Assembly (NCBI GenBank): GCA_014730235.1
Contig: WJIO01000250.1
Span: forward strand, 1 to 30,113
Direction of reading: 5' to 3'
Length of the DNA: 30,113 nt
From: Candidatus Poribacteria bacterium
GTDB taxonomy: Bacteria > Poribacteria > DTPJ01 > WJIO01
The notes beneath the pieces were generated by a model. It had not been told where the DNA came from. It searched no databases and worked only from the letters and a program-made list of their open reading frames with translations. Shown here piece by piece: positions 1 through 28,598 of the stretch; within the stretch, counting starts at the first letter, position 1; every line of letters begins with the position of its first letter. The position numbers were made by a program, and so were the translations under genes.

Positions 1-86
1 GCTCCTGGATTACTGCTTTCGCAGGAATGAAAAGTTGAGAAAATTTCAATTATAACCATACTAAACCCGACTAAACACGAAAGAGT
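1..86. repeat. Partial, diverged copy of the MITE-like repeat
   Basis: This is the right half of the roughly 120-bp inverted-repeat element seen complete at 13423-13543 and 28362-28481. It keeps the core ctgctttcgcaggaatga, a degenerate version of the gctgagaa/ttttcaa segment, and a right terminus ending near cgaaagagtt. The left half is outside the window. The terminus has several substitutions, so this looks like an old copy. The stretch 87-263 is AT-rich and shows no gene or recognisable RNA. Confidence 0.6.
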
Positions 87-263
87 TATAATGGTTGATG
101 ATATGGGGTATTGAGGTGTTGGATGTCTGATAAATGCCATTAATGCTCTAAAGATGCTGGTGTAGTGCCAAAACCGGGCTAATAGGTAATAAGATGAATT
201 ATTACTTTAAAGACAATTTCTGGTTAATTTTGTCTTAAAATTTAAATTTATTTTCTTTACTGA

Positions 264-7180: not shown

Positions 7181-7330
7181 GGCTCTTCCGGGCTTAGTGT
7201 AGTTATAATTGAAAATTCTCTCAGCTTGTCATTCCTGCGAAATTCTTATTCCTTTTTGAAAAAGCTTGAGGAAGGAATACAGTTTTCCAAAATAACGTGT
7301 TTTTTGGTTTCCTGACTTCGTGGGAATGAC
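7181..7330. repeat. Rearranged MITE copy with an expanded hairpin loop
   Basis: The left terminus ggctcttccgggcttagtgt and the inner part up to gtcattcctgcgaa (7228-7241) match the MITE copy at 26921-27040. The matching arm ttcgtgggaatgac is displaced to 7317-7330, with 75 bp of unrelated sequence in what is normally a tiny loop. The right terminus is absent. A second terminus-like piece (tgaaaagcc near 7135-7143) faces the other way just upstream, so the site looks like a collision of two elements. Confidence 0.55.
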
Positions 7331-11918: not shown

Positions 11919-11991
11919 ATGCTGCCTTCGCAGGAATAACAGGTAAACGATATTCATTTAATAATGACGGGTAAATGATATTCATTTAATA
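11919..11991. repeat. MITE core remnant followed by a direct duplication
   Basis: atgctgccttcgcaggaataaca (11919-11941) is a mutated core of the MITE-like repeat. Next to it, ggtaaacgatattcatttaa (11942-11961) recurs as ggtaaatgatattcatttaa (11970-11989) with one difference. The second copy runs into the ribosome-binding site (GGAGG at 11993-11997) of the aminotransferase gene. It may be a slippage duplication or a doubled regulator site. Confidence 0.5.
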
Positions 11992-13185: not shown

Positions 13186-13193
13186 AAATTGAT

Positions 13194-13222
13194 GGTTCCT
13201 CCGGGTTTAGTCCGAAGGAACC
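13194..13222 (+). terminator. Terminator hairpin derived from MITE ends
   Basis: ggttcctccgg and ccgaaggaacc pair over 11 positions with one mismatch around the loop gtttagt, and aatttcattt follows. It starts 8 nt after the aminotransferase stop codon. The arm ggttcctccgggtttagt is nearly the terminal sequence of the local MITE, and the flanks aaattgat/aatttcat match at 6 of 8 positions. It therefore looks like a 29-bp relic of the element with its interior deleted. Confidence 0.6.
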
Positions 13223-13236
13223 AATTTCATTTATTC

Positions 13237-13300
13237 GGTTTTTCCGGTTTTAGTGTGGTAAAGAATCTTCAATTATAATCACACTAAAACCGAAAGAGCC
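13237..13300. repeat. 64-bp internally deleted MITE copy with near-perfect target duplication
   Basis: Termini ggtttttccggttttagtgt (13237 on) and cacactaaaaccgaaagagcc (to 13300) are inverted repeats that match the longer copies, but the ctgctttcgcag core is missing. Flanks are atttattc (13229-13236) and atttattt (13301-13308), matching at 7 of 8 positions. Confidence 0.7.
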
Positions 13301-13422
13301 ATTTATTTTACTATTTAACTATATGGATTAACCGCCGGCATGATAATTGCGCTTTTAGTAACTGATGATCACGCTTTTTTAGGAATATATTAACAATTTA
13401 TCTACTTATACATTATAAATAT

Positions 13423-13543
13423 GGTTCTTCCGGGTTTAGTGTGGTGAAGATAAGAGACTTCTTCATGCTGTCATTACTGCTTTCGCAGGAATGACAAGCT
13501 GAGAAGATTTTCAAATTATTACCACACTCAAGCCGGAAGAGCC
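13423..13543. repeat. Full-length 121-bp MITE-like element with 8-bp target duplication
   Basis: The element begins ggttcttccgggtttagtgt and ends accacactcaagccggaagagcc, with inverted ends of about 24 bp. Its interior is a palindrome around ctgctttcgcag. It is flanked by the identical octamers ataaatat at 13415-13422 and 13544-13551. It contains no ORF, so any transposase would act in trans. Related copies are at 26921-27040 (opposite orientation) and 28362-28481 (same orientation). Confidence 0.8.
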
Positions 13544-13624
13544 ATAAATATATTATAAAATTATCAGAAATCCGATAAACAGTGTCAGAAATTTGACTTT
13601 TTACACATCAAGGGGGTGTAGAAT

Positions 13625-16600
13625 TTGGGCAGAATAAAACTTTCAGTCCATATTCCTTCTTTTGTTACATTTTCACTAATTTTATTAATCTTTTCAATAT
13701 ATATTGTCAATATTGCCAATGCAGCAGCTAATGTTCCCTATCCAACTCCCGACCTTATACTTATTGTCTCAGGAAACGAACAGGAAGGTGTCGTCGGTCA
13801 GCCTTTGGATGAACCATTTGTAGTTAAGATTCTGGATAACAATAAATCTCCAGTAGCGGCTGCATCGGTGAAATTTGAGGTTACAAGCGGGGATGGTAAG
13901 TTAACTAAAAACCCAATTACCGATCCTACAGGGAAAACCAGTATCAAAGTCTTGACAAATAACACCGGTAAAGCAGGTATCAGGTTTATAATGGGTCAAA
14001 GCAAAGACCCGCATATAGTCAGAGTTACTGCTGGGGATGCTGATCCTGTGCAATTTGTAGCCACTATAGGCAATTCTCCTCCTCAGCTTGCCGCTATAGG
14101 TAATAAAACCGTTGAGGAAGGCAAGAATATCAATTTTTTGGTTACTGCAACTGATCCAGATGATGGTGATACAGTGACGCTTTCGGTTGAATCCCTTCCT
14201 GCCAATGCCAGCTTTAATCCCAATACAGGTGTATTTAATTTTAATCCTAACTTTGATCAGGCGGGTACATACGCGGTTAAATTTATCGCCAGTGATGGCC
14301 ATCTGACTGATTCCGAAACTGTAAATATTACCGTCCAGAACGTAAACCGTCCACCCAGCTTTGATATTACTGAAAATTGGACTGTGGACGAAAACAGCCA
14401 GCTAACCATAGCTCTAAACCCAAATGATCCCGACGCTGAAACCCTTTCTTTCTCCGCTTCCTATATGCCACCTGGTGCTACTTTAGATCGGCAAGGGCCT
14501 CAGCAATCGGTATTTAACTGGAAGCCGGATTATAATACTGTAATATCATCCTCACAAAAAGAATTTAATATAACCTTTACAGTAACAGATCCAGCAGGAT
14601 TAACGGTATCTGCTACCACAACCATAACTGTAAATAACGTGGAGCCGCCTCCTTCTGCTGATATAGACGTTGTTCCTCTGGAACTGGATTATGGTTCTGT
14701 AGGACTTGATTCCTCTAAAGACAGGATTTTCAGAATATTTAATCAGGGCAACGCATTATTAAATATCCAGAGTATCTTTTCAAATAATTCCCAGTTTGCT
14801 CTTATTGCCTATTCAGAGGAAGATGAACAGTTTGTTTCTGTGACCTATTCTGACGCCAAGGCTAACTTTGTTGCAAATATTTATGCTGAAGACGATCCCA
14901 GGTATGCGTCAATAGTTATGCCACCAGATAGTATGGCACCAGTAATTATAACCAATTCTAATGATCCCCGATATATGGTTGAAATGTATTCTGAATATCT
15001 TGGTGTTATACCCCGGGTTCAGTATATTAAAAATAACGACAATATAGTAGATGTAAATTATCCAGGGATCGCGCCGGCAGGAAATCTGCTCCTGGTAACC
15101 AGATTTACCCCTACATTAGAGGGTATCCATGAAGGCAAGCTGGAAATAAACAGCAATGATCCTGATGAGCCATTAGTAACAGTTGATGTAAGAGGTGCAG
15201 GTGTTCCTGAACCAATCATAAGCATTTCACCTCTAAATCTGGATTTTGGCCAGGTAGAGATCGGTCAATCTTCTGTCAGAAATTTAAATGTAAGTAACAA
15301 AGGCAGCAAAGTTCTAAATATCCAGAACATAACATCAAGCAATAACCAGTTTACCGCGCCAAAACCTTCAGGTATTATCCCTGGTGAAACTAAAGGTGTA
15401 ATTGTAACATACAAACCAACAACTCTGGGTCCTGTTACCGGTGAGTTATCAATAGTTAGTGATGATCCTAAAGCACCTGTGGTTACGGTTTCAGTTCAGG
15501 GAACGGGTTTAAAGCCGCCTGAACCGGATATAAGGATAGAAACGTTAAGCCTTAACTTCGGACAGGTATATACAAACAGTTCACTGGAAAAAACTTTCCG
15601 TATATACAACGACGGTGAAGCAAATCTTGATATTGCAGACATTACATCGAATAACTCTCAATTCACAGTTCCTGCATATTCAGATATACTGCCCGGTGAA
15701 AATGCAGATGTAACCGTTAATTATCAACCAACTACAGCAGGCAGTCATAACGCTTTAATTACAGTAAAAAGTAATGATCCCGATGAACCGCAGAAAACTA
15801 TAACAGTTCAGGGTGAAGGTGTTGCTCCTCCTAAACCAATTATACGCATTGAACCTATGGAAATTAACTTTGGTGATGTAGAAATTGGTGAACATAAGGA
15901 CGAAACATTTGCTATACATAATGATGGTAACGACATTTTGAATGTGTCCAGTATAGCTTCCAATAACAGCCAATTTCAGGTTTCCGGTAGCCCGAATATA
16001 GATCCGGGTGAAGTAACCTATATAAATATACAATTTGTTCCGGTTTCAGCAGGTGCAAAGACCGGTTTGGTTACCGTACAAAGCAATGATACTGACAATT
16101 CCACAAAAACCATAGATGTTCAGGGTGAAGGAATAGTAGTCCCAAGACCTGATATAAGAATTTATCCCGCTTCTGTGGATTATAGTCAGGTAGACGTGGG
16201 TAGTTCTCAGACCCGAAACATTCGTATATACAATGACGGTGATGCAAAGTTATGGATTTCAACTATAACCTCCAGCAGTAGTCAGTTTATCATACTGGAT
16301 AATCCGGATGTGGAAGCGGGAGAGATGAAACAGTTGAGAGTTAGGTTTACCCCTGTTTCAGCCGGAAATAAACAGGCGACCATAACCATAAACAGCAATG
16401 ATCCTGATGAATCTGTTGTAAATGTAGAGCTTATGGGTGAAGGCGTTGTTCCTCCTGCTCCCGAAATTCGTATAAATCCTGCAAGTCTGGATTTTGGTGA
16501 TGTGGATTTATCTCAATCAGTAACCAAGAAATTCCGTATCTATAATGATGGTGAAGCTGCATTGAATATAACCAGCATAACATCCAGTAACAGTCAATTC

Positions 16601-19441
16601 ACAATATTGGATAATCCAAGCACTATAGCAGTAGATGGTCTTTCTGATGTGCGGGTGAAATTTATACCTTCATCAGCAGGAACAAAGACAGCATCTGTGG
16701 TTATAGCCAGCAACGATCCTGACGAATCCAGCAAAGTCGTTCCTGTGCAGGGGGTAGGAATTCCTGCACCTGTTCCTGACATAAATGTTTCTCCTGTTAG
16801 TCTGAATTTTGGTCAGGTGGGAGTTGGCGCACAAATGGATAAGGCTTTGCGCATATATAACGAAGGTGATGCTGTATTAAATATTTCCAGCATAACATCC
16901 AATAGCAATCACTTTACAATATTAAATGAGCCGGATATAGAACCGGATTCCTTTGCTGATATTAATGTTCGCTTTAAGCCTTTCACAACTGGAGTCAAGA
17001 CCGGATCACTAACCATATCCAGTAATGATCCGGATGAAAATACCGTTTCAGTTCCACTTGAAGGTGAAGGTATACATCAGGAATTCCCGGATATATATGT
17101 GACTACCAATATACTGGAATTTGGGGATGTTGAAATAGGCAGTTCGTCTCAGCAGTCATTCCAGATATACAATTTGGGTGATGCTGTATTACAAATATCC
17201 GATATAACATCCTTCGATAGTCGTTTTGTGGTGCTTAATAAACCAAATGTAGCTGCCGGCTATAGCGCTGTGATACAGGTTAGATTCTCGCCTGTTGCCT
17301 ATGGCACAAGAAGCGGAACGCTGACGATTAAAAGCAATGATCCGGATGAGTCTGAAGTATACATTACCGTTGTCGGTAATGGTATATACCCCGGATATGC
17401 CGATGTTGGTGTCTGGAACAAAGTTGATATACAGAATATATCTCAGACTATGAGGGATGTTTTCTTTATTAATAATGACACCGGCTGGCTTGTAGGAGAT
17501 AACGGACTTATCGCCAGCAGTGATGACAGTGGTGATACATGGTCGTTACAGAACAGTAACATAACAAAATCTCTAAGAGGAATACATTTCACAAGCCAGA
17601 ACAACGGCTGGGCTGTTGGACAGAATGGCACTATTCTTTATACAAATAACGGTGGAACATTCTGGAGCACCTACAGCGCAGGTGGAAACAACACGTTAAA
17701 CGATGTATACTTTATGTCAAATCGTGGATGTATAGTTGGCGATGACGGCATGATTCTGACATCATATGGAAGTAATGACTGGATTGTACGGGATTCAGAT
17801 ACAGGGAGAGATCTAAACGCGGTATGCTTTGCAAGTGCCTATCGCGGTTGGATTGTAGGAAATTCAGGGACAATACTCCATACTACAAATGGTGGTAATA
17901 CATGGACCCAGCAATATACCGGCACTAACGCTGCCCTTAACGGTGTAGATTTTGTGAATACGCAGATCGGCTGGGCTGTGGGTAGTTTCGGTAAGATATT
18001 ACACACTACAAATGCAGGTCAGACATGGACATCCCAGGATGGGGGCATTGGTTTCATAACACTGCATGATGTGGACTTTATTAATTCCAATGAAGGCTGG
18101 ATTGTTGGGCAGAATGGAATTATCCTTTATACAGATGATGGTGGCGAAACATGGATAAATGTAGACAGCAAGATCAGCAATACCATAAACGCCGTCCATT
18201 TCAATGATACCGAAAACGGTTGGGCTGTAGGCTATTACGCCTCTATTCTCAAGCACTACATGACAGATCAGCCAGTTATAACATCTGTAAGCGTTACAGG
18301 TTCTCCCGCTGGTGCTGGTGATGTGATTACTATAATCGCCCAGGGAACACCGGGAAATACATGCAGTTTCTCCATCGCAGGGGTTGTATGGAATAGACTT
18401 ATGACTGAAAATCCATCTGGAACCTACAGGGGAACATATACAGTTTCCCAGGGGGTAAATGTCACATCTGCAACAGTAACAGTGGTTATGACTGATGAAA
18501 ATAGCAACGTGGACACAGACAGCAGTAAGAAGGTGACTATTGATACCCAGGCGGGTATTACGTCTATAAGTGTAACAGGAAGCCCGGCGAGGTCGGGAGA
18601 TAATATATCTATTACTATAGAAGCCGATCCCGATGGTAGTGCGAGATTCTCCATCGCAGGGGTTGTCTCAAACCTGGTAATGACGGAAGGTGCAAACGGT
18701 ATCTATTCTGCAAATTACACCACACCATCATGGGCTTATGTAAAAGATGCTGTTTTAACCATAAGCTTTACCGATGAGTCGGCCAATACCATAAATAATA
18801 CCAACAGAAAAGTTAGCATTTATCCCAACTGGGATGTAAATATGGACGGTATTGTAGATATATCCGACCTGACCATAGTTGCGTCAAAATTTGGTAATCA
18901 GGTTGCAACAGGTGATCCATCGGATATAAATGAAGATGGAACAGTGGATATTTTCGATCTGACGACTGTATCCAGTCACATGGGTGAATCGGCGGCAAAC
19001 GCCTCACCAGCAGTCCGGTTGCCTGTCACAGATAAATCTCAATTGGCTGTGTTGCGGGATGTCTATAATTCAATAGACTGGTCTGGTAATGATCCTTCTC
19101 TGAATTCCCTGGAAAATCTGTTTACCGATATATTGGGATTAAGAACAGCGAAGTTCCAGCTTATGCAGAACTATCCCAACCCATGTAATCCCGAAACATG
19201 GATACCATACAGCTTATCAGAAGCCGGTGATGTTGTAGTTAAAATATACGATTCTATGGGTAAGTTGATCCGAACCCTGGATATAGGTCATAAAAATCCC
19301 GGTGTGTATTATAATAAGGGAGACGCTGTATACTGGGATGGTAAAAACGAATATGGAGAAAGCATATCCAGCGGATTGTATTTCTACAGCATTAAATGTG
19401 GGGAATTCAATGCAATGCGTAAGATGATGGTTAGGAAATAG
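13625..19441 (+). CDS. Giant modular exported surface protein: Ig-like, ASH repeats, Ycf48-type propeller, dockerin, FlgD/T9SS-like C-terminus
   Basis: A 1938-residue protein with TTG start and RBS agggggtg at 13611-13618. Signal peptide 1-33 (ends NIANAA). Then come a Big/invasin-like Ig domain (40-148) and two cadherin-like He_PIG domains (about 150-240 and 245-340). Eight ASH/choice-of-anchor-D repeats of about 103 residues follow (343-1255), each with FG(Q/D)V...(I/L)YNDG...ITS.NSQF and ending SNDPDE...V.GEG. The first has an insertion of about 80 residues. Next is a seven-bladed Ycf48-like propeller (1259-1546; seven GW(A/L/I)VG motifs, one as GCIVG), two Ig-like domains (1549-1730), a dockerin-type calcium pair (1735-1787; DVNMDGIVDISD, DINEDGTVDIFD), and a C-terminal FlgD/T9SS-like domain (1842-1938; NYPNPCNPETWIPY). 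Probably secreted and attached outside the cell for adhesion or scaffolding. Ligand unknown. Confidence 0.93.
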   Translation: MGRIKLSVHIPSFVTFSLILLIFSIYIVNIANAAANVPYPTPDLILIVSGNEQEGVVGQPLDEPFVVKILDNNKSPVAAASVKFEVTSGDGKLTKNPITDPTGKTSIKVLTNNTGKAGIRFIMGQSKDPHIVRVTAGDADPVQFVATIGNSPPQLAAIGNKTVEEGKNINFLVTATDPDDGDTVTLSVESLPANASFNPNTGVFNFNPNFDQAGTYAVKFIASDGHLTDSETVNITVQNVNRPPSFDITENWTVDENSQLTIALNPNDPDAETLSFSASYMPPGATLDRQGPQQSVFNWKPDYNTVISSSQKEFNITFTVTDPAGLTVSATTTITVNNVEPPPSADIDVVPLELDYGSVGLDSSKDRIFRIFNQGNALLNIQSIFSNNSQFALIAYSEEDEQFVSVTYSDAKANFVANIYAEDDPRYASIVMPPDSMAPVIITNSNDPRYMVEMYSEYLGVIPRVQYIKNNDNIVDVNYPGIAPAGNLLLVTRFTPTLEGIHEGKLEINSNDPDEPLVTVDVRGAGVPEPIISISPLNLDFGQVEIGQSSVRNLNVSNKGSKVLNIQNITSSNNQFTAPKPSGIIPGETKGVIVTYKPTTLGPVTGELSIVSDDPKAPVVTVSVQGTGLKPPEPDIRIETLSLNFGQVYTNSSLEKTFRIYNDGEANLDIADITSNNSQFTVPAYSDILPGENADVTVNYQPTTAGSHNALITVKSNDPDEPQKTITVQGEGVAPPKPIIRIEPMEINFGDVEIGEHKDETFAIHNDGNDILNVSSIASNNSQFQVSGSPNIDPGEVTYINIQFVPVSAGAKTGLVTVQSNDTDNSTKTIDVQGEGIVVPRPDIRIYPASVDYSQVDVGSSQTRNIRIYNDGDAKLWISTITSSSSQFIILDNPDVEAGEMKQLRVRFTPVSAGNKQATITINSNDPDESVVNVELMGEGVVPPAPEIRINPASLDFGDVDLSQSVTKKFRIYNDGEAALNITSITSSNSQFTILDNPSTIAVDGLSDVRVKFIPSSAGTKTASVVIASNDPDESSKVVPVQGVGIPAPVPDINVSPVSLNFGQVGVGAQMDKALRIYNEGDAVLNISSITSNSNHFTILNEPDIEPDSFADINVRFKPFTTGVKTGSLTISSNDPDENTVSVPLEGEGIHQEFPDIYVTTNILEFGDVEIGSSSQQSFQIYNLGDAVLQISDITSFDSRFVVLNKPNVAAGYSAVIQVRFSPVAYGTRSGTLTIKSNDPDESEVYITVVGNGIYPGYADVGVWNKVDIQNISQTMRDVFFINNDTGWLVGDNGLIASSDDSGDTWSLQNSNITKSLRGIHFTSQNNGWAVGQNGTILYTNNGGTFWSTYSAGGNNTLNDVYFMSNRGCIVGDDGMILTSYGSNDWIVRDSDTGRDLNAVCFASAYRGWIVGNSGTILHTTNGGNTWTQQYTGTNAALNGVDFVNTQIGWAVGSFGKILHTTNAGQTWTSQDGGIGFITLHDVDFINSNEGWIVGQNGIILYTDDGGETWINVDSKISNTINAVHFNDTENGWAVGYYASILKHYMTDQPVITSVSVTGSPAGAGDVITIIAQGTPGNTCSFSIAGVVWNRLMTENPSGTYRGTYTVSQGVNVTSATVTVVMTDENSNVDTDSSKKVTIDTQAGITSISVTGSPARSGDNISITIEADPDGSARFSIAGVVSNLVMTEGANGIYSANYTTPSWAYVKDAVLTISFTDESANTINNTNRKVSIYPNWDVNMDGIVDISDLTIVASKFGNQVATGDPSDINEDGTVDIFDLTTVSSHMGESAANASPAVRLPVTDKSQLAVLRDVYNSIDWSGNDPSLNSLENLFTDILGLRTAKFQLMQNYPNPCNPETWIPYSLSEAGDVVVKIYDSMGKLIRTLDIGHKNPGVYYNKGDAVYWDGKNEYGESISSGLYFYSIKCGEFNAMRKMMVRK

Positions 19442-26920: not shown

Positions 26921-27040
26921 AGTTCTTCCGAGTTCAGTGTGGTAATAATTGAAAATTTTCTCAGCTTGTCATTCCTGCTTTCGCAGGAATGACAGCATAA
27001 ATAAGTCTCTTATCTTTACCACACTGAACCCGGAAAAGCC
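26921..27040. repeat. Full-length 120-bp MITE-like element with 8-bp target duplication
   Basis: Ends agttcttccgagttcagtgt and ttaccacactgaacccggaaaagcc are inverted repeats. The centre gtcattcctgc-ttt-cgcaggaatgac is at 26968-26993. Identical octamers aaagtaag flank it at 26913-26920 and 27041-27048. It lies in opposite orientation to the copies at 13423 and 28362. Confidence 0.8.
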
Positions 27041-28361: not shown

Positions 28362-28481
28362 GGTTTTTCCGAGTTTAGTATGGTAAAGATAAGAGACTTA
28401 TTTATGCTGTCATTCCTGCGAAAGCAGGAATGACAAGCTGAGAGAATTTTCAACTATTACCACACTGAACCCGGAAGAGCC
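28362..28481. repeat. Full-length 120-bp MITE-like element
   Basis: It begins ggtttttccgagtttagtat and ends ttaccacactgaacccggaagagcc-like (actattaccacactgaaccc, ending at 28481), with the core cctgcgaaagcagg. Same orientation as 13423-13543. Its flanks gaaaattt and aaagtgtt agree at only about half the positions, so the target duplication has decayed or been lost. Confidence 0.75.
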
Positions 28482-28598
28482 AAAGTGTTCACGGACATAA
28501 ATTTTATGCTTCGAGAGTCGAAAATTTGAAATATAGGTGTTTTTATGATAATATTATCAGGAATTATAATATCTCGATAATAATACGGAGGATAAATC

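Follow-up and report, generated by a model that had tools for sequence, protein, structure and literature searches.

The window analysed here, a stretch of 30,113 nucleotides that makes up the whole of contig C181 of a draft genome (5.53 Mb, 451 contigs; the bin lists 4.8% contamination), harbours several copies of a short element with inverted ends. The locus raises the question of what these copies are, which transposase moves them and why their interiors vary. A first-pass annotation of the sequence had assigned them to a MITE family, here called MITE1, and the high copy number, the inverted ends and the marks of transposition described below all support this assignment. Three full copies and a 64-bp form were checked and found to be correctly placed. 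The copy at 13423..13543 (+) has 121 bp, arms A-B and a REP centre with a TTTC loop, and is flanked on both sides by the exact target site duplication (TSD) ataaatat. Its centre, which resembles CGTC-1-type REPs, occupies positions 13468..13496 and consists of the head TGTC, the stem ATTACTGC/GCAGGAAT with the loop TTTC, and then GACA. The 120-bp copy at 26921..27040 (-) presents arm B first, with the exact TSD aaagtaag in both flanks, and is opposite to the other two full copies, in agreement with the varying orientation reported before. The third copy, at 28362..28481 (+) and also of 120 bp, lacks a TSD (gaaaattt/aaagtgtt) because its right flank is a remnant of the right end of another family, X (AAAGTGTTCACGGACATAAATTTTATGCTTCG, 28482..28513, +). 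The 64-bp form at 13237..13300 (+) has no REP centre, and its duplication agrees at 7 of 8 positions (atttattc/atttattt), so that two exact duplications and one imperfect one were found, as annotated. Pairwise identity among the three full copies is 85-93%, and within each of them 19-20 of 24 bases are identical between the inverted ends, which fits the length of about 24 bp proposed for these ends.

Three further places in the window had been annotated as damaged copies. The one at the contig start (1-86 in the annotation, about 1..87 here, +) is indeed a partial MITE1, truncated by the contig start and with a degenerate right end. The other two did not hold as such: the element at 7181..7330 (+) is chimeric, with the left end of MITE1, arm B and the REP centre followed by a non-MITE1 arm, and 11919..11941 is no more than what is left of the central REP stem-loop. 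A 29-bp hairpin (GGTTCCTCCGGGTTTAGTCCGAAGGAACC) at 13194..13222 (+), 8 bp 3' of the stop codon of an aminotransferase gene, can be read either as a minimal, end-to-end MITE1 remnant or as a terminator. The Rfam search of the window returned no match. Positions 13625-19441 of the window encode a protein of 1938 aa that repeats with a period of 312 bp, or about 104 aa; by eye, a putative dockerin-like segment, BNR-like repeats and a sorting-like domain at the C-terminus were recognised in it.

The terminal inverted repeats of MITE1 comprise about 24 bp (GGTTCTTCCGGGTTTAGTGTGGTA). The genome-wide search for the ends, which the first-pass annotation had proposed, was carried out with an 18-base end pattern and at most three mismatches; it found 468 forward and 481 reverse matches in the whole genome, compared with 3 + 3 for the reversed pattern, and therefore at least about 470 copies are present. 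With the 121-bp copy as query, at least 40 full-length or near-full-length places of 87-100% identity were found, 40 of 884 candidates having been scored. Further statistics come from a sample of 984 kb (18% of the genome), which consists partly of contigs picked as known holders of copies. In this sample, a 24-bp weight matrix (PWM) detected 311 ends, versus 5 with the reversed matrix, and 116 end pairs. MITE1 elements there are mostly 62-244 bp in size and possess no coding capacity. Three longer end pairs of 1137, 1203 and 2128 bp were considered as autonomous elements and rejected, since they enclose unrelated genes and no transposase. Contigs of the draft frequently terminate inside MITE1 copies. 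Searches of viral contigs with either end variant, and of plasmids, gave no match.

MITE1 copies are located almost exclusively between genes. Entirely intergenic positions were found for 109 of 113 copies, and 3 lie mostly within an ORF, versus 87% of random placements; the median distance to the nearest gene is 48 bp. Convergent gene ends host few copies (5/92). The predicted hairpins far exceed shuffled sequence in stability (z -7.6 to -11.2).

Transposition of MITE1 is shown by its duplications, by empty sites and by nesting. Among the first 80 testable copies (first 730 kb), 29 have an exact 8-bp TSD and 51 one with at most one mismatch, while shuffled flank pairs of the same 80 copies gave 0.19 and 2.15, respectively. 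In the same test, shifted registers yielded 0-3 matches, and lengths of 7 and 9 bp yielded 0-4, so the annotated duplication length of 8 bp, not 7 or 9, is well founded. Across the 984 kb, 111 copies could be tested, of which 41 have an exact duplication and 64 one with no more than one mismatch; absence of flanking repeats from most copies, named in the annotation as a sign of stable structural elements, was thus not seen, and about 40% of paired ends are without a good TSD. The duplications are AT-rich as proposed, with 90% AT versus 69% in the flanks. Empty sites were found as well: the joined flanks of the copy at C224:7231-7351 match 27 places, the best listed being 93-98% identical across the junction, and these places are copies of a second family, Y, uninterrupted by MITE1. 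Joined flanks of C313:4881-5006 gave 26 such matches. The screen flagged 19 copies, of which several others were self-matches or weak and are left out as proof. The annotated claim of transposition is therefore borne out by strict 8-bp TSDs together with empty sites. Short and non-coding, with 24-bp inverted ends and a constant 8-bp TSD with empty sites, MITE1 is as a MITE family very abundant yet ordinary.

The first-pass annotation did not include the REP centre, the interchange of arms, the nesting of families or the chimeric nature of one damaged copy in the window. CGTC-1 REPs have a CGTC or TGTC head, an 8-bp stem with initial AT, a 4-base loop and a CCA tail; they include dRS3 and RPE-6, and CGTC-type REPs apparently have no dedicated transposase (PMC3733652). 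The MITE1 centre possesses the CGTC-1 head, an 8-bp stem starting with AT and a 4-base loop, and on these features it is classified as a putative CGTC-1-type REP stem-loop. Variation of the centre accounts for the length ladder of 64/120/141/163/185/206 bp in the 984-kb sample. Type I centres read TGTC-ATTCCTGC-(GAAA or TTTC)-GCAGGAAT-GACA, with the REP ending in GACA or CCAG. Type II centres carry a second palindrome, TTCAAGCTTTTTGAAAAAGCTTGAA, in place of the loop, and type IV is derived from type II and longer. In type III, two REPs point their tails at each other (...GCAGGAATCCAG...CTGGATTCCTGC...); combinations of III and IV occur as well. All types occur on the same arms, some MITE1 forms are without REP, and the arms themselves, of which at least five kinds (A-E) were distinguished, combine in many ways. 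The direction of the loop relative to the arms also varies, with 20 TTTC and 14 GAAA among A-B copies.

In the 984 kb, we found 172 CGTC-1 units in 149 centres, 169 of them with a head on at least one side; 65 have a head and a tail, and 97 have heads on both sides. Among 144 centres with usable flanks, repeated arms are present on both sides in 110, on one side in 27 and on neither in 7, and as a control 3 of 400 random 60-mers passed as repeated arms. Many of the repeated arms beside the REP are not MITE1.

Family Y possesses its own arms, ends GTAATCGTTAAAAAATG and a TSD of 5-6 bp, and the same REP as MITE1. Its copies measure 91 bp without the REP and 124 bp with it (examples at C31:24699, C32:28802, C76:27179 and C169:37549), and the two forms differ by the stretch between the near-repeats TTGTCATT/TTGTAATT. 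Eight chimeras join a Y end and a MITE1 end at the REP, and seven of these are without any TSD, as expected of recombination products. Arm clustering, tallied by hand, indicated that about 14 of 129 fully classified centres pair a MITE1 arm with a non-MITE1 arm; since the genome is a draft, some of these inter-family chimeras could be misassemblies at the common centre. Family X has ends CCAAGCATAAAWTTTA and a 9-bp TSD, for example ACCATAAAT and ATTGAAGCA, and contains MITE1 nested at AAAGTTTT. X elements with nested MITE1 are about 163-333 bp long (L329, L333, L339, L344 and others). Over the left half of X, the best 40 copies found agree with 97-100% identity, and the amplification of X is therefore recent. 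Half-X flanks such as 28482-28513 in the window point to possible recombination between copies.

As to the transposase, the first-pass annotation had proposed that an ISL3-like enzyme encoded elsewhere mobilises the family. This proposal is partly supported. The 8-bp, 90% AT TSD of MITE1 is an ISL3 trait, and the outer 11 bp of the MITE1 end (GGTTCTTCCGG) agree at 10 of 11 positions with the ends of ISL3 elements of other bacteria (GGTTCATCCGG), a comparison in which the first eight bases were largely preset by the pattern for picking ISL3 ends and which is meaningful because the end sits at a constant distance from the stop in most loci. Copies with arm C have the outer end GGCTCATCCAG. The inner 13 bases of the MITE1 end (TTTAGTGTGGTA) differ from the ISL3 ends examined. 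As for a full IS with the ends of MITE1, which the annotation had suggested looking for, no complete IS with the 24-bp ends (GGTTCTTCCGGGTTTAGTGTGG) was found in the draft genome itself or in relatives. The search for the ISL3 zinc ribbon gave nothing above the cut-off, and no MITE1 ends occur in the 24 genomes whose ISL3 transposases are closest.

Three ISL3 (PF01610) fragments are present in the draft, every one at a contig end. The one credible fragment, on contig C391 (L066 3-176), covers the C-terminal 58 residues of an ISL3 transposase and is 98% identical to the transposase of a Desulfobacteraceae MAG and 95% identical to that of a Neomarinimicrobiota MAG (L146, L147). This similarity may reflect either a recent cross-phylum transfer or a binning error. 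In the relatives of this fragment, the IS terminates with GGTTCATCCGG right after the transposase stop. As a direct parent of MITE1 it was rejected, because the relatives' IS ends at the stop (GGTTCATCCGGG...) and the inner bases differ. A MITE1-like end about 300 bp 3' of the fragment belongs to another element. The contigs with the other two fragments, C342 (L061) and C236 (L062), look foreign to the genome by their gene content, which by eye includes a primase-like gene and XRE-type regulators. A contig-end match on C27 with a GTCTCTTCAGAGTTAAGTGTGG end led to no transposase. The transposase gene may be lost, or may be missing from the assembly, because multi-copy ISs break short-read assemblies. 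Mobilisation of MITE1 by an ISL3-type transposase is the best inference, and we regard it as somewhat more likely than not.

Taken as a whole, MITE1 is likely a non-autonomous element, probably moved by an ISL3-type transposase, that carries REPs as passengers and exchanges its parts at a shared palindrome. The enzyme would be a DDE transposase, with ISL3 the most likely family, and would cut AT-rich intergenic targets with an 8-bp stagger. REPs would be carried as passengers of MITEs, both in MITE1 and in the unrelated family Y, since they nearly always adjoin MITE arms in the two families. Recombination or template switching at the common REP palindrome could invert the loop and swap nested centres, and the same exchange could join arms of different MITE families, because the palindrome is common to all these elements. 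In addition, family X has been amplified with MITE1 nested inside. More tentatively, and at somewhat less than an even chance, CGTC REPs may be dispersed as centre modules that are interchanged between MITEs, the palindrome acting as a swivel and arm exchange giving rise to new MITE families.

Another family with 8-bp TSDs and ends starting with GG, such as IS1595, could be the mobiliser instead of ISL3. IS1595 transposases are common in the phylum (53/81 genomes), and relatives showing no ISL3 transposase have the related ends TTCAGAGTTAAGTGTGG, there flanked by 8-bp TSDs. Nonetheless, IS1595 has 0 matches in the genome itself, 30 IS1595 loci are without MITE1-like ends and the ISL3 ends share 10/11 outer bases with MITE1, which makes a mobiliser from outside ISL3 unlikely. 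Far more improbable is a reading in which the copies are not transposons at all and serve as stable hairpins with a structural or regulatory function (terminators, attenuators, REP/BIME-like repeats). Very stable hairpins, intergenic positions at a median of 48 bp from a gene and the REP centre agree with such a role, but the strict 8-bp TSDs, the empty sites, the nesting in X and Y, the essential lack of copies in relatives and the lack of an Rfam match do not, and terminators are further disfavoured by the scarcity at convergent gene ends. A secondary role of the MITE1 hairpins in expression is possible.

The modular interior and the chimeras might also be short-read assembly artefacts at repeated palindromes, given that contigs often end inside MITE1 and that the common centre is repeated many times. 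This is quite improbable, as centre variants I-IV recur at constant lengths within intact 8-bp TSDs, which misassembly would not produce, and the centres of 28-100 bp are below the usual read length; the doubt touches only the inter-family chimeras. Alternatively, the REP itself could be mobile and have inserted independently into several MITE families without exchange of arms, as the two forms of Y and the MITE1 copies without REP might suggest. Solitary REPs, however, make up just 7 of 144 centres, chimeras of two families exist, and the size difference in Y between the near-repeats fits deletion as well as insertion, so that we consider independent insertion doubtful.

Similar to ISL3-derived MITEs, MITE1 possesses ends starting GGTTC-TCCGG, an AT-rich 8-bp TSD and no coding capacity. 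It is unlike the ISL3 elements examined in the inner half of its ends, in that no parent was found, and in its exchangeable arms and nested REP centres. BOX elements are built as boxA-boxB-boxC. Those of Streptococcus pneumoniae are, like MITE1, modular small repeats (PMC3049150). Their modules are tandem boxes, whereas the variable part of MITE1 is a palindrome centre between transposon ends. The MITE1 centre shares with dRS3 (Neisseria) and RPE-6 (Rickettsia conorii) the character of CGTC-1 REPs that form outward-headed dimers (PMC3733652), but the REPs of this genome sit almost solely beside MITE arms. REP-carrying MITEs are not without precedent: QMITE2 of Coxiella burnetii contains a REP, of GTAG type, and comes in several lengths, and differs in its REP superfamily, its 7-11-bp duplications and its 78 copies (PMC5896051). 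The passages on QMITE2 consulted describe no centre shared among unrelated MITE families (PMC5896051), and what makes MITE1 interesting is a REP centre that is both shared and exchangeable. The literature searched contains no ISL3-type MITE of such build, and no CGTC REP as a centre common to unrelated MITE families with arm exchange. For the spread of CGTC-type REPs such as dRS3 and RPE-6, MITE arms give a concrete, testable dispersal route, and MITE1 offers a clear natural series in which the centres of short palindromes are exchanged.

The MITE1 end pattern does not exceed background in 58 genomes of the phylum, apart from a handful that have a sister end; among the genomes searched, the expansion of MITE1 is therefore confined to the lineage of the present one. 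The first-pass annotation had considered copies at orthologous sites in distant relatives a sign of stable structural elements; in the relatives searched, nothing beyond stray matches turned up, the few with the sister end aside. This end is related but different (TTCAGAGTTAAGTGTGG / GGYTCTTCAGRGTTAAGTGTGG) and belongs to other non-autonomous elements, 270-1200 bp in size, some of them flanked by 8-bp duplications. In one relative (G004), contigs C17, C21, C23 and C29 (L226-L229) stop about 50 bp inside elements ending in GGYTCTTCAGRGTTAAGTGTGG, as expected of a multi-copy, unassembled IS.
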